Assembly: GCF_900636965.1 (NCBI RefSeq)
Contig: NZ_LR134331.1
Span: 1,674,001 to 1,738,000, forward strand
Direction: 5' to 3'
Source: Lacticaseibacillus rhamnosus
GTDB taxonomy: Bacteria > Bacillota > Bacilli > Lactobacillales > Lactobacillaceae
Length of the DNA stretch: 64,000 bases
Shown: positions 4,609 to 60,992 of the stretch, in pieces
How the letters are laid out: every line of letters begins with the position of its first letter
Numbering within the stretch: position 1 is the first letter of the stretch
The notes under the pieces: model-generated
Told to the model about the DNA's origin: nothing
Databases searched by the model: none
The model's input: only the letters and a program-made list of their open reading frames with translations
Program-made: the position numbers and the translations under genes

Positions 4609-6312
4609 CTACGATGACACTTTGCCATGTTTAAACTCATCGGCCATTCTTAATAGTTCTTCGGCATGTTCAATCGTCAGCTTAGTGATTTTTTCGCCGG
4701 CCAGCATCCGCGCAATTTCCTCTACCCGCGCTTTATGGGTTAGTTTATTGACTTGGGTCGTTGTCCGACCGTCATGAACCGCCTTGCTGATGACATACTC
4801 ATGATCGGCCATGGCAGCCACTTGCGGCAGGTGCGTAATACACAACACCTGCGACCTTTTGGCGATTAAGCTAATTTTATTGGCAATCGCTTGCGCAACC
4901 CGTCCGGAAACGCCGGTATCAACCTCATCGAAAATGATCGCCGTGACCCCTTCCGAGCGCGCAAAAATGGTTTTCATCGCAAGCATCAGCCGCGATAATT
5001 CCCCACCTGACGCAATTTTGGCTAACGGCTTGGCTTCTTCACCCGGATTAGTCTGAATATAAAAGACCGCTTCGTCTAACCCGTCTGCCCGAAAATCTTT
5101 GGCCTTAGTAAAATGAACCGAAAAAACCGTTTTATCCATGTACAGTGACGCCAGCTGCTCGTGGATCGCTTTGGTCAGTTGTTTGGCAGCAGCGTGCCGG
5201 CGTTTTGAAAGTGCCGCACCGAGTTTCTGAAGCTGGGCTTGAGATTCTTTTAGGTTGCTGTCTAGATCTTCAACCGATGTTTCGGCTTGTTCCATCTGAT
5301 TCAATTCCGCCGCTGCCCGTTTGCCATAAGCGATCACTTCATCAAGGGTTTCGCCGTATTTGCGTTTGAGCTGATTAAATAAGTCGAGCCGTTTTTCGAC
5401 TTCATCTAGGCGGCCTTCGTCAAATTCCTGATCATCGAGTTCTTTCGATAAATCATTTTGGACATCTTGCAAACTATAATACGCACTCTGCAAGTTGTCG
5501 GCAATTGCCGCAAAATCCGGATCCAAATCGGCAATGCTTTGCATACTCGACATTGCTTGACCAATTTGATCAAGTGCATTGACTTCCTCATCACTCAACA
5601 AGGCATAGCTTTCTTGCAAAGCAGCATTGATTCTTTGAAAGTTTGCCAACCGATCGCGTTCGGTACTTAAATCAGTATCTTCATGCGGTTGCAGATCGGC
5701 GCTTTGAATTTCGCTCACCTGGAATTTCAACATATCCAGTCGTTGCGCCCATTCCTGTTCATTTGCCTGTTTTTGCTTCACTGCTTGTAAGGTACGCTGA
5801 TAATTTTGATAAACTTCTGCATATTGGTGGCGAATTTTCAGCAGATCATCACCGGCAAAGGCATCCAATAAACCTAGATGCGTTTCCGAATGCATCAGCT
5901 GCTGATGTTCATTCTGGCCGTGAATATCCACCAACGTTTCGCCAATCGCTTTCAAGGTGGCGGTGTTGACCAGATGACCGTTAACGCGACAAACGTTCCG
6001 GCCGCTGCGGAATAATTCGCGCTGTAACAAGACGGTGTCGTTTTGGTCCGGATCCATCACCCCGAAAGCCTGGAGTTTGGCTTCCGTCAATGGATTTGCC
6101 TGCGCGTCAAACAAACCTTCCAAGCTTGCCTTGGATGCCCCGGTTCGGATGAAATCAACCGATCCGCGCCCACCAGCCAACAAACCCACCGCATCAATAA
6201 TAATTGACTTGCCGGCCCCGGTCTCACCAGTGAGCGCCGTCATCCCTGACTGAAAGCTCAACGCCAAGTTATCAATGATGGCAAAATCATGAATTGCTAA
6301 CTCCTGTAACAT
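4609..6312 (-). CDS. recN: DNA repair protein RecN
   Basis: SMC-like ATPase that gathers broken DNA ends in recombinational repair. Start at 6312: the protein then begins MLQELAIHDFAI, the family N-terminus, 4 bp after the argR stop; the frame is open further upstream but only as an extension through argR. Walker A GETGAGKS is near residues 29-36, a long coiled-coil middle follows (about 150-370), then the signature GGELSRLMLA and Walker B IIFDEVDTG near the C-terminus. It has 567 residues, the normal size. It is the last gene of the folD-to-recN operon. Confidence 0.95.
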   Translation of the reverse strand: MLQELAIHDFAIIDNLALSFQSGMTALTGETGAGKSIIIDAVGLLAGGRGSVDFIRTGASKASLEGLFDAQANPLTEAKLQAFGVMDPDQNDTVLLQRELFRSGRNVCRVNGHLVNTATLKAIGETLVDIHGQNEHQQLMHSETHLGLLDAFAGDDLLKIRHQYAEVYQNYQRTLQAVKQKQANEQEWAQRLDMLKFQVSEIQSADLQPHEDTDLSTERDRLANFQRINAALQESYALLSDEEVNALDQIGQAMSSMQSIADLDPDFAAIADNLQSAYYSLQDVQNDLSKELDDQEFDEGRLDEVEKRLDLFNQLKRKYGETLDEVIAYGKRAAAELNQMEQAETSVEDLDSNLKESQAQLQKLGAALSKRRHAAAKQLTKAIHEQLASLYMDKTVFSVHFTKAKDFRADGLDEAVFYIQTNPGEEAKPLAKIASGGELSRLMLAMKTIFARSEGVTAIIFDEVDTGVSGRVAQAIANKISLIAKRSQVLCITHLPQVAAMADHEYVISKAVHDGRTTTQVNKLTHKARVEEIARMLAGEKITKLTIEHAEELLRMADEFKHGKVSS

Positions 6313-14938: not shown

Positions 14939-15058
14939 TGTGTGCACCTCCTGTTTTGCCTCTCGGCTTTTCCCCTGAAGACTCGCCAAGTTAGGTGCTT
15001 GCGCTTAAAACCTAACGATGTGCGGTTGCATAGGAGGGGTGCCAAATACAACGGATTA
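14939..15058 (-). ncRNA. L21 leader (cis-regulatory ribosomal protein leader)
   Basis: The roughly 110-base 5' UTR of rplU contains a stable helix in which CGTTAGGTTTTAAGCGC and AGCACCTAACTTGGCG pair through TTAGGT and ACCTAA, plus the RBS-proximal stem around AAAGCCGAGAGGC. Position and architecture match the L21 leader class of Bacillota, thought to mediate autogenous control by L21. The assignment is from position and pairing, without a covariance search. Confidence 0.65.
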
Positions 15059-17468: not shown

Positions 17469-17542
17469 GTACCAGTAGCTCAGTTGGATAGAGCAACGGT
17501 CTTCTAAACCGTTTGTCCCGGGTTCGAATCCCGGCTGGTACA
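17469..17542 (+). tRNA. tRNA-Arg (anticodon TCT)
   Basis: 74 bases fold as a standard cloverleaf: acceptor GTACCAG/CTGGTAC with discriminator A, D arm with AGCTCAGTTGGATAGAGC, anticodon stem ACGGT/ACCGT with loop CTTCTAA (anticodon TCT, reads AGA), T arm CCCGG-GTTCGAA-CCGGG type. CCA is not encoded. It has its own promoter and terminator. tRNA 3' ends like this are common integration sites; see the repeat beyond it. Confidence 0.97.
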
Positions 17543-19445: not shown

Positions 19446-21839
19446 TTAAATGCGAAACGGCAGGGTCAAGGTACTTTTGGCCAAATCCAGCTGATAATGG
19501 GTGACTTTTGTTGGCCGAATCGTTTGCGCCATATCAGCACCATGAATAATCAGTGCCAGTTGCCGCCCAGCCGGTAAGTGATAATGCGTTGGCTGCAAAT
19601 CGAGACTCACATGGAAAAACTGTCCGGGGGTGATGGTTTGAACTTCATACGCATTCTTTGGGTTTTGCAAATTAATATGACCCAGCGTGATCAATTTGCT
19701 TGGCGTTTCCTTATTGGCCGGTTTAAATTCAACAATATCCGTGGTCTTAAAATCAAATCCCAGCTGCAAGCCACTTGCCCCCACCGTTGCGGCATTTTCC
19801 TCAAAACGCTTGGCCTTGCCTAAATCAACCAGCCGCACACTGAGAATGCCGGTTGGCGCATCAACGGCTAGCGTTAACTCAAGATGCGGAATGCCTTCTA
19901 AGACCCGATCATGCTCTAGGACCGGCTGAGTCAACCACAGACGACTGTTAACATAGGCGCTATTAGGCGTAATAATTGCTTTTTCAAAACTTGCACTCGT
20001 ATCGTGTTGGGCCGTGAATGTTGCTGTCGCATGATCCGAAAATTGATCGGTTGCGCTTTCAAAATCAGTTTTCAAATTAGCCGTGGTTGTCACATGCTCT
20101 GCAGCTGGGTTCGCAAAGTCCGAATAAGCTGACCATGTCTGCGGTGTCACGTTATCCTGAACCAACACATTCGGCAAAACCTGCTCTGCCTGATTGGCAA
20201 CTCCTAACAATTCGTGAGTCAGCCAAAGATTCATCATGTCCAGAAAGTCCAAGGAACGAACATTGTGCACGTAGACATGCTGACCTTGATGCAGGATCAA
20301 CTTCTTTTGAATCGGTAAATCCGCAATTGCCTGCCAGAACCGAATGGCGTTCTTTGGTTTAACATTCCAATCATTTAGCCCGTGAATCAGGACCACATCC
20401 GCCTTGACATTAGCCGCGTTTTTTCGGTAATTCCGCGCGTCCCACCAAGCAGTATAAGCGCCCGTTGTCCGATCCTGATCCCGAGTCATTTGCGCCAGAT
20501 GCTGCTCCCAGGCCTTTTTAAGGCGAATCATATCGCCACCGGATTTTTGCCGTGAAAAAGTATCAACCGCCAATACGTCGGCATCTTCACCTTGATAGCC
20601 ACCCGGTGCCACAACGAGACCATTTTCGCGATAGTAATCATACCAACTCGAAATCCCGGCATCAGCAACAATTGTTTTCAAACCTTCAACGCCGGTGGTT
20701 GCCGCTGCAATGGCCAGTGTCGCCAGATAAGACTTACCGGTCATAGCCACTTTGCCACTCGACCACCACGCCTTAATTGCAACGCCATCCGTGCGATTGG
20801 TAAAAGCCCGGCGTTTACCCGTCAGCCATTCAATCACGGCAACTGCCCCATCTGTTTCTTCCGGTCCGCCAATTGTGCGAAAGCCATCCGAATAACGCGT
20901 CCCGACACCAGCTGAATAAACAACCGCAAATCCTCGCGCCAGAAAATAATCATTGAAGGCATATGGACTATTTTCCTCAGCGTATGCCGCTGCCTGTTTC
21001 GTCTCACCTGTCACCGGTCGCGCTGGCAGTTTTGGTTTGGAAGCCGGCGCTGCGGTGACTTCCGCTTTCGAAGCGCCATGTGGTTTAACCGCCAAGACCG
21101 TTTCCGGAACATGCGTCGCCGCGGTGACATCGTTGGTTCCATGAAAGTAAGGGTTAGCGGTAAAAAGCACCGGAACTTTCAGCCCGCGATCGGTGGCTTT
21201 GGGGCGATAAATCGTTGCCTCAAGCAGATCACGTTGGCCGTCGTGGTCAGAATCTACATCTGATTCGATCCAGACAACCTCCCGAACAGCTTGACGCGCA
21301 TCAAACACCTGTTGCACCTTGCCATTAAAGAGCAAATGAGCCGGTTGCGAACTTTGAGCCTGAAAATCCTTAAAAAAACCGCGATTGGCTAAATCATCCA
21401 GAAAGCTAACCAAGTGCTTGGTGCGCGTGGTCAGTAACAGGTAGCTGGCCTGAAGCAAATCAGCAGTATGTAGCAAATCATGCGCAACACTCGGTAGTTT
21501 TGTTACAGTCATAAATGAAATCGGATCGCTTAAATCAAAGTCCGAAAACGCCTCAAAGCCCAAGAGCTGTAGCGCAACATTGTAAAAGTCTGCCCGCTTC
21601 ATGTGAGTGGGCTTTGTCGCCAACCACTCAGCAAGATTTTGGTGTGAATTAACCGCAACTTGAGCAAACTTATCCTGTTGCGCCGCGGGTTGATATGCCT
21701 CAGGGAAAAAGGCTGCGTACATCGCAGCTGCAGTATCCGCAAAGGGTGCTTGCGGATCGGCGGGTAACCCAATGCGTGCGAGTTCCTTTAATTGTTGATC
21801 AATATCAGGCGTTAACCGAGCAAACTGGTTTAATTTCAT
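19446..21839 (-). CDS. pepX: Xaa-Pro dipeptidyl-peptidase PepX
   Basis: Serine peptidase (S15) releasing X-Pro dipeptides from casein-derived peptides; cytosolic in lactobacilli. It has 797 residues. A helical N-terminal domain precedes the alpha/beta-hydrolase core with nucleophile motif GKSYLA (Ser near 369), acid in HGLNDWNV and His in HQGQHVYVHN (near 521); a jelly-roll C-terminal domain ends the protein. GAGGAAGG precedes the ATG. Structured repeat copy A begins 49 bp upstream and may hold the promoter or be part of the 5' UTR. Confidence 0.96.
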   Translation of the reverse strand: MKLNQFARLTPDIDQQLKELARIGLPADPQAPFADTAAAMYAAFFPEAYQPAAQQDKFAQVAVNSHQNLAEWLATKPTHMKRADFYNVALQLLGFEAFSDFDLSDPISFMTVTKLPSVAHDLLHTADLLQASYLLLTTRTKHLVSFLDDLANRGFFKDFQAQSSQPAHLLFNGKVQQVFDARQAVREVVWIESDVDSDHDGQRDLLEATIYRPKATDRGLKVPVLFTANPYFHGTNDVTAATHVPETVLAVKPHGASKAEVTAAPASKPKLPARPVTGETKQAAAYAEENSPYAFNDYFLARGFAVVYSAGVGTRYSDGFRTIGGPEETDGAVAVIEWLTGKRRAFTNRTDGVAIKAWWSSGKVAMTGKSYLATLAIAAATTGVEGLKTIVADAGISSWYDYYRENGLVVAPGGYQGEDADVLAVDTFSRQKSGGDMIRLKKAWEQHLAQMTRDQDRTTGAYTAWWDARNYRKNAANVKADVVLIHGLNDWNVKPKNAIRFWQAIADLPIQKKLILHQGQHVYVHNVRSLDFLDMMNLWLTHELLGVANQAEQVLPNVLVQDNVTPQTWSAYSDFANPAAEHVTTTANLKTDFESATDQFSDHATATFTAQHDTSASFEKAIITPNSAYVNSRLWLTQPVLEHDRVLEGIPHLELTLAVDAPTGILSVRLVDLGKAKRFEENAATVGASGLQLGFDFKTTDIVEFKPANKETPSKLITLGHINLQNPKNAYEVQTITPGQFFHVSLDLQPTHYHLPAGRQLALIIHGADMAQTIRPTKVTHYQLDLAKSTLTLPFRI

Positions 21840-21888: not shown

Positions 21889-22012
21889 GTGAGCGCGAGC
21901 CAGCGCGTTCAGGGGCCGGAGTGTAAGTTGCCTTGGGCGTGATGGCCGGGCTTTGGCCAGTGTGCGACCAAGGTCCTTACACCCAGGCTCCTGCGCTGGG
22001 GAGCGCGTTATG
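21889..22012 (+). repeat. Structured intergenic repeat, copy A
   Basis: About 124 bp from GTGAGCGCG to GAGCGCGTTATG, related to copies at 48229 and 60584. It folds as one long interrupted hairpin: CCAGCGC/GCGCTGG, AGGGGCC/GGCTCCT, GTGTAAG/CTTACAC, CCTTGG/CCAAGG and an inner TGGCC/GGCCA. It is followed by a truncated second start (GTGAGCGCGACTCAGC, 22013-22028). It fills most of the 425-bp gap between pepX and glnA; the remainder (22030-22145) is AT-rich with no gene seen. Confidence 0.85.
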
Positions 22013-22149
22013 GTGAGCGCGACTCAGCACGTGTATGAACTTGACAAAGCACCAAGTTATAACAGCGTAAGATGAGAGAAATGTGATAAACACAGTGTAG
22101 CCATCTCATTTAGTGTTTTCAACTCTAAAAATATTTTAAATTAAATGCA

Positions 22150-48228: not shown

Positions 48229-48350
48229 GTGAGCGCGAGCCAGCCCGGTTAGAAACCGGAGCATAAGTGGCCTTGGGCGTGATGACCCGGGTTTGGTCAT
48301 TGCGACCAAGGTCCTTATGTGCAGGTTTCTGGGCTGGTGAACGCGTTATG
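48229..48350 (+). repeat. Structured intergenic repeat, copy B
   Basis: 122 bp, same orientation and boundaries as copies A and C. Paired blocks: CCAGCCC/GGGCTGG, AGAAACC/GGTTTCT, GCATAAG/CTTATGT, CCTTGG/CCAAGG, inner ATGACC/GGTCAT. Relative to the other copies, nearly every changed base on one arm is matched by a change on the other. A partial second start (ATGAGCATGAGCCAGC) follows at 48351-48366. The rest of the 318-bp gap holds the acyP promoter. Confidence 0.87.
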
Positions 48351-48436
48351 ATGAGCATGAGCCAGCATTAACCAATCGCCAGTTCACAAACAAAAATCCG
48401 ACTTTAGCCTCTTGTCGCGTTTTCTATATACCTTAT

Positions 48437-58886: not shown

Positions 58887-60011
58887 TTAAATAAATGCTT
58901 TACGTAATAAAACATCCACGCCTTTAGGGGCATAACCTGCAATGGTGACGCCAGCCGGTACCGTAATCCAGCCGAGACCGGCAAAAACCAGATCCGATTT
59001 TTCTTTCGGCGTGAATTCAAAGCGAACCAGCGGCGGAAAATCTCTGACTTCATCAGCTTGTGGCGGCGCTAGAAGACCCCCGACATGCTTCTGATAAAAC
59101 TCATCAGCGTTGATCAATTTTGTCCGGTGCAGCGGCAATTGCGTATCGGCGTAAATGACAAAGCTTTGGCGGCCGCCGCGAAGATAATCGAACCGTGCCA
59201 GTCCGCCGAGAAAGATGGTCTGGCCTTCATTCAACTGATAAGTCGCCGGTTTAATCACCGAAGTCGGGGATACCAGTTTCAAATCCTTGGAGCCGACAAA
59301 ATGTGCCATCTGGTGGCGATGAATGATGCCTGGCGTGTCAATTAGCGACTGCCCATCATCTAACGGAATCATAATGCGATCAAGCGTGGTTCCCGGGAAG
59401 CGCGATGTTGTAATGAGATCCTCGACACCGGTTAATTGCTTAATAATGCGGTTGATTAACGTTGACTTGCCAGTATTGGTCACCCCGACAACGTACACAT
59501 CGCGATGTTCGCGATACTTCTCGATAGCGGTGAGTAACTCGTCAACCCCAAATCCTTTTTTGGCACTGGCCAGCAAGGTTGTTACCGGCCGTAATCCCTG
59601 CGCTTTAGCTTGCTGCTGCAGCCAGTTTTTTAATTTATTGGGATTCAACGATTTAGGCAAGACATCTGCCTTATTCCCGACCAAAATGACGGGATTATCC
59701 CCGACAAAACGATGCAATCCGGGAATCACACTGCCATTAAAATCAAAAATATCAATGACATTCACAATCAATGCGTTACTTTCACCGATCGCATTCAGGA
59801 GGCGTAAAAAATCATCGTCAGTTAACGTGACGGGTGCAATTTCATTGTAATGCCGCAGTCGAAAGCAGCGTTGGCAATAAATGTCATCGTCAGCCTCGGC
59901 TTTTGCTAATGTCGCGGCTGGCAGATAGCCTGGCTTTTTAGGATCGGTTGTCTGCAAAATAGCGCCACAGCCTATGCAGCGGCGCTCTGTTTCATCATTG
60001 ATGATGTCCAT
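58887..60011 (-). CDS. yqeH: Ribosome biogenesis GTPase YqeH
   Basis: Circularly permuted GTPase needed for 30S maturation. It has 374 residues: N-terminal zinc finger (CIGCGA near 15-20 and CQRC near 47-50), then G4 (GNKADVLPK), G5, G1 (GVTNTGKST), G2/G3 (DTPG) in permuted order, and a C-terminal RNA-binding-like domain. GGAGG precedes the ATG. It overlaps yqeG by 17 bp. Confidence 0.95.
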   Translation of the reverse strand: MDIINDETERRCIGCGAILQTTDPKKPGYLPAATLAKAEADDDIYCQRCFRLRHYNEIAPVTLTDDDFLRLLNAIGESNALIVNVIDIFDFNGSVIPGLHRFVGDNPVILVGNKADVLPKSLNPNKLKNWLQQQAKAQGLRPVTTLLASAKKGFGVDELLTAIEKYREHRDVYVVGVTNTGKSTLINRIIKQLTGVEDLITTSRFPGTTLDRIMIPLDDGQSLIDTPGIIHRHQMAHFVGSKDLKLVSPTSVIKPATYQLNEGQTIFLGGLARFDYLRGGRQSFVIYADTQLPLHRTKLINADEFYQKHVGGLLAPPQADEVRDFPPLVRFEFTPKEKSDLVFAGLGWITVPAGVTIAGYAPKGVDVLLRKAFI

Positions 60012-60528
60012 GAATATCCTCCTGATAATTCAGTTGCCTTTTCTTGGCTAAGGCTTTAAAAACAAAGCCCTCAAAAAAGCGATTTATCCGCGTGTTCCAG
60101 GCGTCACTTTGCACCAACGGCTGAGTTAAGATGGTCCGCACGCCGGCAAGATTACCGGCCCAGATATCTGTCAGCAGCTGATCCCCTACCATGACAACTT
60201 CAGAACGCGTCAGCCCTAATTCTTTGCGCGCTTTGGTAATCCCGACTGGCAAAGGTTTTAATGCCCGGGCAACATAAGCCACTTGCAGCTTTGCCATCGC
60301 TTTATGGATACGATTGGCGTTGTTATTTGACACAACAACCACCTGGATGCCGCCGTTACGTAAATCAGAAAGCCACTGGGTCAGCTTAGCCGTACCTTCT
60401 GGGTGATCCCATGCCATCAGCGTGTTGTCTAAATCGGTCAACACCGCTTTAATACCTTGCTGCTTTAGACTAGCAGGCGTCAGGCTAAAAATATTCGTTA
60501 CCAGCCAAGTCGGCTCAAAAACTGCCAC
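59995..60528 (-). CDS. yqeG: YqeG family HAD-type phosphatase
   Basis: 177-residue HAD IIIA protein: motif I TDLDNTLMAWD (nucleophile Asp near 32), motif II VVVSNNN, and VMVGDQLLTDIWAGN. A phosphoglycerolphosphatase-like role is reported for plant and cyanobacterial relatives; the role here is unproven. GTG start. A TATAAT lies about 40 bp upstream, between the gene and structured repeat copy C. First gene of the eight-gene cluster ending at tmcAL. Confidence 0.9.
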   Translation of the reverse strand: MAVFEPTWLVTNIFSLTPASLKQQGIKAVLTDLDNTLMAWDHPEGTAKLTQWLSDLRNGGIQVVVVSNNNANRIHKAMAKLQVAYVARALKPLPVGITKARKELGLTRSEVVMVGDQLLTDIWAGNLAGVRTILTQPLVQSDAWNTRINRFFEGFVFKALAKKRQLNYQEDIHGHHQ

Positions 60529-60583
60529 AAATCCTGTCCCCTCTCCGGTTGTTCATATCCTTATATTATAACGGAAAAAACTG

Positions 60584-60705
60584 GTGAGCGCGAGCCAGCG
60601 CGGTTAGGAGTCGGAGTGTAAGCGGCCTTAAACGTGATGGCCCGGTCTTGGCCATTGCGTTTAAGGTCCTTACACGCAGACTCCTGCGCTGGGGAGCGCG
60701 TTATG
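60584..60705 (+). repeat. Structured intergenic repeat, copy C
   Basis: 122 bp, the best-paired copy. Arm blocks: 60595-60601/60686-60692 (CCAGCGC/GCGCTGG), 60606-60612/60679-60685 (AGGAGTC/GACTCCT), 60616-60622/60669-60675 (GTGTAAG/CTTACAC), 60626-60634/60658-60666 (CCTTAAACG/CGTTTAAGG) and 60637-60642/60650-60655 (ATGGCC/GGCCAT). All 36 pairs are perfect. No coding frame is plausible. Confidence 0.9.
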
Positions 60706-60808
60706 GGAGTAAAAGCGAACTAGTGCCCTTAGACATAACGGCTCGGTCTTGGCCATTACGCTCAATGCCCTTACACGCAGACTCCTACGCCGGTAAATAT
60801 GCTTATGG
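60706..60808 (+). repeat. Decayed tandem copy C' of the structured repeat
   Basis: The right half matches copy C closely (CGGTCTTGGCCATTACGCTC, then CCTTACACGCAGACTCCT), while the left arm is mostly lost. It directly follows copy C, so units can stand head to tail. The remainder of this 509-bp gap up to 60990 shows no gene. Confidence 0.7.
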
Positions 60809-60992
60809 CAACCGCGGCCCACCCAAATCTCAAGCCCCAAAATCGGCCACCAAGTTGCAGCTAAGTAACAGCCTTCGCATTGGCAGTGCCAAAAATGTAA
60901 ACGTTATCTTTAAAAGGCGAAATAATCGCGTTATCAGAATAAACAGGGTAGGATGAATTTGATAGCAAACGCTCGCATTCCGATATTAAGCC

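Follow-up and report, generated by a model that had tools for sequence, protein, structure and literature searches.

Why do the paired bases of an intergenic hairpin change together, and where does the selection or copying that couples them act? The question is raised by a 122-nt repeat in a 64,000-nucleotide stretch of Lacticaseibacillus rhamnosus DNA (GCF_900636965.1, NZ_LR134331.1, 1674001–1738000), hereafter the window, from a genome that is one contig of 2,988,387 bases. From the window alone, the original prediction described three copies with common ends and orientation, each folding into one long hairpin and differing from the others mainly at paired bases. Coordinates, + orientation and common ends are correct for all three, and the predicted folds are single long hairpins of −72.2, −72.4 and −78.3 kcal/mol (z −5.7, −8.2 and −11.0; 0 of 200 shuffles in each case). 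The listed paired differences are present as well, with a G-T included in AGGGGCC/GGCTCCT. The 16-base start of the unit occurs six times in the window at up to 3 mismatches, against 0.52 expected. The features of the three sites are as follows.

60584–60705, +: full unit of 122 nt, a single long hairpin (sequence, fold, covariance model)
59995–60528, −: HAD-hydrolase ORF, the gene left of the 60584 unit (Pfam)
60602–60605, +: 4-nt one-sided bulge GGTT between two 7-bp helices (fold; a like bulge recurs in other species)
60613–60615, +: left side, GGA, of a conserved 3x3 internal loop (survey of units, below)
60676–60678, +: right side, GCA, of the same loop (same survey)
60586–60592, +: GAGCGCG, left member of a short direct repeat on either side of the hairpin (sequence; scars elsewhere)
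60694–60700, +: right copy of GAGCGCG (sequence)
60722–60796, +: degenerate second unit of the 60584 array, profile positions 38–112 (sequence, profile)
48229–48350, +: full unit beside the anti-Shine-Dalgarno of the gene to its left, 19 bp from that gene's start codon
47448–48209, −: gene left of the 48229 unit (ORF list)
48351–48366, +: piece of the left end of another unit, with 3 mismatches over 16 bases
21889–22012, +: full unit of 124 nt (fold)
19446–21839, −: gene left of the 21889 unit (ORF list)
22013–22028, +: piece of the left end of another unit, with 2 mismatches over 16 bases

With the degenerate unit and the two fragments counted, every window site has, besides its full unit, a further unit or a piece of one. 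The five proteins flanking the 60584 copy belong by Pfam scan to a HAD hydrolase, two glyoxalases, a YqeH-like GTPase and an alpha/beta hydrolase, and for that copy the statement that no transposase is near holds. Rfam gave no family match for the hairpin copies, with 0 matches for the hairpins in the window, 0 for 15 loci of several genera and, on 60560–60830, a best E of 1.2 and none above the gathering cut-off. Weak miRNA matches far below gathering scores, expected for any long hairpin, were rejected as evidence of a known RNA family. The sole Rfam matches in the window are an L21 leader (14969–15037, −) and a tRNA (17469–17542, +). The open-access literature yielded no paper on the family, most subscription papers lying outside the scope of that search.

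Family size, arrays and anchored left ends

The repeat family is real, and the three window copies are a small part of it. Blastn against the L. rhamnosus genome returned at least 86 pieces with the best 40 of 205 candidates scored. A covariance model trained on 57 copies matched 150 of 150 scored candidates (from 1545 first-look candidates); together with the window copy at 21889, these bring the count to 151 full copies or more, spread over 115 sites in 2.99 Mb. Two or three full copies lie at 33 of the 115 sites, and none of these 33 mixes strands. A profile search of 418,455 bases, picked as stretches around copies and thus giving densities that are not genome-wide, yielded 121 arrays with one (32), two (47), three (32) or four (10) units; the 262 units in them include 190 full ones. 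Near-identical copies at different sites are scarce (19 pairs with at most 3 differences, 1 identical), giving no sign of strong recent activity and suggesting that present activity is low. Divergence within arrays (0.157) is barely lower than between arrays (0.165), which argues against recent simple tandem duplication as the main source of arrays. A second unit type with a short leader (GGGCGTAAACCAGAACATAAG...) is common downstream in arrays of this genome, for example in L010, L008 and L023, and is never the first unit; it resembles a unit without the left arms of helices 2 and 3, and leaders like GGGCGTAAACCAGAACATAAG seem to follow first units in other genera too.

Units are ordered by quality along the array. 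Of the 89 arrays with several units, 78 have a first unit with a higher profile score than their last, and in 68 the first unit has the top score of the array; this comparison favours first units because they form 120 of the 190 training units. Broken stem pairs, a count independent of the consensus, were used instead: they rise from 1.4% at rank 1 (72/5144) to 3.5% at rank 2 (80/2293) and 8.1% at rank 3 (48/595), with 3/86 at rank 4. Two or more of the units are full in 55 arrays: in 32 of these the last full unit has more broken pairs than the first unit, in 7 it has fewer and in 16 as many. Partial units are distributed in the same direction, 1 at rank 1 and 71 at ranks 2–4. The simplest reading of the gradient is that new copies would enter at the left junction, so that the newest stands at the left.

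The left end is also the end that is anchored. By a simple ORF caller, all but one of the 121 arrays are intergenic, and the neighbouring gene strands (left,right) are (−,−) in 43, (+,+) in 32, (−,+) in 21, (+,−) in 15 and unclear in 10. In the 120 arrays with a complete left end, the left flank holds T5 within 13 nt in 42 and an anti-Shine-Dalgarno within 25 nt in 35, and 43 arrays have neither; the corresponding rates are 1.9% and 1.6% at random positions, and right flanks reach only 3/121 and 2/121, respectively. The flanks of the 42 T5 arrays fold with a median of −17.2 kcal/mol against −3.4 for the rest. Strand by replication arm (38 − and 28 + on one arm, 21 − and 34 + on the other; p 0.045) was set aside as a feature, being weak and confounded with gene direction.

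Gain and loss were followed in three related genomes of 90–95% mutual identity (G005, G006 and G028) and on plasmids. One site is a clean empty site, filled in G006 and empty in G005 and G028, with no long target duplication and room for 0–3 bp; at another site, the filled copy is placed after a terminator T-run. Several other "empty" plasmid or chromosome sites turned out to be deletion scars or ambiguous, and the window sites in L. zeae and L. chiayiensis lack the copies in flanks too diverged for exact junctions. Loss is by deletion: on plasmids, hairpins are deleted with their ends left behind, and related plasmids carry the site minus the hairpin. In a PTS operon gap on L. paracasei and Pediococcus plasmids, two very different hairpins occupy the same position between flanks that hardly differ; of the hairpin, L060, an L. 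plantarum plasmid, retains only the right end.

L054 and L055 versus L059 and L035, around 2501–2620 (L035, 1501–1621): the two hairpins of the PTS gap

In L182 (around 6125–6270) and L176, a short scar (TGAGCGCGTTATAG) that stands alone in a related species has a full copy to its left, possibly a second insertion at one junction. Among 72,556 plasmid records the family occurs in 15 (9 from Pediococcus, 6 from Lacticaseibacillus); a phage origin was rejected, as 0 of 50,697 phage records contain it.

Covariation at the same site and between sites

The compensatory change from which the original prediction argued is real. In the 57 copies, 20 of 43 stem pairs show two-sided change, and two-sided cells number 183 versus 54.4 ± 10.3 in shuffles (0 of 500 as high) and 5–39 in slid controls. 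Across 258 units (190 from the L. rhamnosus genome, 28 from G005, 20 from G006 and 20 from G028), copy pairs differing at 4–7 positions carry 355 two-sided stem changes where 30 are expected.

Comparing the same site between species with different sites within a species separates selection in place from effects of copying. Mapping of arrays between G005, G006 and G028 gave 57 mappings, both directions counted, of which 46 are occupied, all in identical orientation, and 11 have no copy. Twenty first-unit pairs are comparable. The 16 with at most 21 differences, a cut chosen after the list was seen, contain 73 one-sided and 9 two-sided stem changes, with 3.2 two-sided expected if sides change independently; 38 of the 73 one-sided changes break pairing and 35 retain a standard pair. 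The four pairs with at least 25 differences, likely replacements among them, contain 32 one-sided and 17 two-sided changes, which brings all 20 to 105 and 26. Different-site copies within a genome, under the same divergence limit, show 932 one-sided and 1015 two-sided changes, with 182 two-sided expected. The one-sided excess at orthologous sites, against the two-sided changes of paralogs, indicates that covariation is made or selected between copies and not at sites. Stem sides have changed slightly less than unpaired positions in the 16 pairs (7.0% versus 10.0%), which, with 9 two-sided changes against 3.2 expected, leaves room for weak constraint on resident copies in place. The proposal that covariation reflects selection on structure finds no support for resident copies, whose ortholog changes are mainly one-sided and about half pair-breaking and which are lost with scars; such selection is better placed at the moving stage.

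G-T and A-C combinations were compared as a wobble test. At 40 stem pairs with a Watson-Crick consensus, the 258 units hold 245 G-T and 182 A-C, with 17 pairs favouring G-T, 19 favouring A-C and 4 tied. The excess is strongest at pairs 32–91, 40–84 and 58–66, and leaving these three out post hoc gives 173 and 178. By array rank, the G-T/A-C counts are 81/38 in first units, 61/58 in second and 15/38 in third. The G-T excess on the + strand of first units fits a pairing needed by the + strand hairpin during movement; weak in-place selection on first units would produce the same excess, and only the ortholog comparison argues against it.

Quasi-palindromes undergo template switching, and traces of copying between arms are visible in the internal loop. 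GGA/GCA is retained in 222 of 248 readable units (10 of the 258 are unreadable). In seven units, a two-base change has made one side of the loop exactly complementary to the other (5 GGA/TCC and 2 TGC/GCA), and 2 further units have a perfectly paired loop in other letters; the four one-step intermediates of the two-base changes are absent from the 248 units. On one plasmid copy, the left arm has been rewritten from the right arm. This rewriting of loop and arm is likely caused by template switching, and occasional arm-to-arm copying makes covariation possible without selection. A unit at 1501–1621 of L030 has the loop segment inverted relative to the family (GGCCAAGACCGGGCC).

Two rival accounts of the covariation were weighed. 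The hairpin could be a cis-acting RNA selected at each site, as an mRNA stabiliser, RNase III site or backup terminator, with stems covarying to preserve the fold. Its strong fold, its nearly always intergenic sites beside terminators or Shine-Dalgarno sequences, the 2:1 ratio of G-T over A-C in first units and the strong G-T excess at three pairs speak for such a role, which we nevertheless consider unlikely: every orientation to neighbouring genes occurs, related plasmids have lost the hairpin from the site, all units together split 17 to 19 between pairs favouring G-T and A-C in spite of the overall 245 to 182, and in the 16 retained ortholog pairs change is mainly one-sided, 38 of the 73 such changes breaking a pair. 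About equally improbable is that covariation is purely mutational, one arm being rewritten from the other by template switching, and owes nothing to selection on structure. The exact-complement and otherwise perfect loops that lack one-step intermediates, the rewritten plasmid arm and the inverted loop are what it predicts, but the loop is still asymmetric in 222 of 248 units, and the few two-sided changes at orthologous sites (9 versus 73) make in-place arm copying too slow for the paralog pattern. Arm copying contributes and is not the whole cause, unless it takes place during copying of the element. Covariation in a repeat family, even when strong and shuffle-proof, is no proof that an RNA functions at every site, and the same-site/different-site comparison could serve for further hairpin families as well, REPINs and MITEs among them.

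A proposed mobile hairpin and the search for a mobiliser

We interpret the family as a non-autonomous, REPIN-like mobile hairpin of ~120 nt without a RAYT, whose structure is needed for moving and not for sitting, and give this reading a probability of about 0.6. Among the three options first raised, namely a non-autonomous mobile element, an RNA element and a protein-binding hairpin, the mobile element is the best. In a single-stranded form, DNA or RNA, the + strand would fold into the long hairpin, with two nearly constant asymmetric landmarks (the 4-nt bulge and the 3x3 GGA/GCA loop) on stems that could be any pairing sequence. A putative trans-acting enzyme may recognise the shape and the landmarks and set the left end of the new copy at the same junction, the end of a terminator T-run or a point just upstream of a Shine-Dalgarno, each insertion presumably displacing older copies rightward. 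Mobilisation would be restricted to well-paired copies, and after insertion a copy would decay near-neutrally and be lost by slippage between its flanking direct repeats. Against this reading stand the failure to find a mobiliser in the form of a Y1 gene in the L. rhamnosus genome, the scarcity of near-identical copies at different sites, the single clean empty site, the signs of weak constraint in retained orthologs and the 43 of 120 arrays with neither flank type.

The candidate examined was the Y1 transposase, PF01797, which has 0 matches in the L. rhamnosus genome and is present in 5 of 14 control genomes. Of five genomes with many blastn matches, L. rhamnosus, G005 and G017 lack it and G006 and G028 have it; over the genus, 13 of 30 genomes carry it, genomes without the hairpin included. 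A classical REP/RAYT system was therefore rejected, there being no Y1 gene in the L. rhamnosus genome and no tracking of the hairpin family by Y1 in the genus.

REPINs are extragenic, non-autonomous hairpins of ~100 nt in hundreds of copies, for which PMC3116915 describes private covariation, compensatory changes and cluster growth beside older copies. The present family is alike in being an extragenic hairpin with compensatory changes, in clustering beside existing copies and in being non-autonomous. It differs in that its genome is without Y1/RAYT, in that a REPIN is a doublet of conserved short REPs and the unit here a single hairpin carrying a 4-nt bulge and a 3x3 loop, and in having left ends anchored at T-runs or anti-Shine-Dalgarno sequences and one-orientation arrays with a decay gradient. 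That these are REP/REPIN elements moved by a RAYT is accordingly very improbable in spite of the agreement in size, hairpin, extragenic dispersal, compensatory changes and clusters with what PMC3116915 reports, given the absence of PF01797 from L. rhamnosus, G005 and G017 and its presence in non-carriers. We give just as little credence to a MITE derived from, and mobilised by, a known IS: the units are short, non-coding and dispersed, with inverted-repeat-like ends, but the hairpin spans the whole element, the stems are not fixed, the clean empty site shows no long target duplication, and no parent IS was noticed in the DNA stretches read.

Other systems share some of these properties with the mobile hairpin proposed here. 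Integron attC sites and the Vibrio cholerae repeats are species-specific hairpins of ~120 nt with variable stems, read by shape and unpaired landmarks; size, species-specific variable stems and landmarks are common to both, and the hairpins here differ in being dispersed in the genome, with neither cassettes nor an integrase noticed. IS200/IS605 elements and PATEs have strand-specific hairpins and insert beside T-rich sites without target duplication, from which our family is set apart by a genome without Y1 transposase and only a weak, confounded strand bias (p 0.045). BOX is modular in layout, and EFAR of Enterococcus faecalis (Venditti et al. 2007) reportedly inserts into stem-loops such as terminators. 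Compared by description only, BOX and RUP are likewise intergenic, structured and multi-copy, and Efa-1 and EFAR are palindromic intergenic repeats of a related order. Efa-1 is, according to PMC2267715, a palindromic intergenic repeat of 163 bp made of a pair of adjacent stem-loops, and this description sets it apart from the single hairpin studied here; the same paper names BOX and RUP as repeats of Streptococcus pneumoniae. The family is unusual in its anchored left end, its polar arrays and its species-specific stems on a common architecture.

Distribution across Lactobacillales

At the level of DNA similarity, blastn matches are present in 7 of the 30 genomes of the genus, five of which have many pieces. 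The covariance model reaches further, matching 21 of 25 other genus genomes at E ≤ 0.01 (93 of 144 scored candidates in G016), 32 of 151 genomes of the taxonomic family, from 14 of 40 genera, at E ≤ 1e-8, and 12 of 295 genomes of the order, including three from a single genus outside that family. In the larger of these searches, only 23 or 12 candidates were scored per genome under stricter filters, so absences mean little. The model is permissive, the antisense strand of members from L. rhamnosus and related species scoring ~49–57 bits, and cross-genus matches near that level therefore rest on structure; some genus matches (e.g. G003, G013, G001 and G023) resemble the family less and may be unrelated hairpins.

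Architecture is the same across species and stems are species-specific. The 4-nt one-sided bulge after the second helix is readable in 47 of 64 sequences, and flanks in other species, in the examples seen, again hold T-runs or anti-Shine-Dalgarno sequences. With one row per species (n = 15), 97.0% of cells pair and 38 of 43 pairs change on both sides, against 38.4% and 34.9% in slid controls, a count that leans towards the model's structure since the rows were chosen and aligned by it. These observations allow the tentative suggestion of a new Lactobacillales hairpin class, in which a non-Y1 enzyme would read bulge and loop instead of sequence, stems would form species "dialects", and returns to the same junction, next to a terminator or ribosome-binding site, would build arrays with the newest copy at the left. 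If polar arrays and landmarks are rightly understood, the arrays would be a dated insertion record and a route to a new hairpin-reading enzyme in food and probiotic bacteria, and hairpins beside Shine-Dalgarno sequences could influence gene expression.

One copy has travelled between genomes. Five of the inspected matches in the taxonomic family (G084, G123, G129, G148 and G166) are one identical copy beside a copper-type P-ATPase operon, also found in three other Lacticaseibacillus genomes; a copy common to several genera points to horizontal transfer and not to a resident family. In L209–L211, L277–L280 and L282, from several genera, the copy lies with identical flanks between CopY-like and copper-type P-ATPase ORFs.
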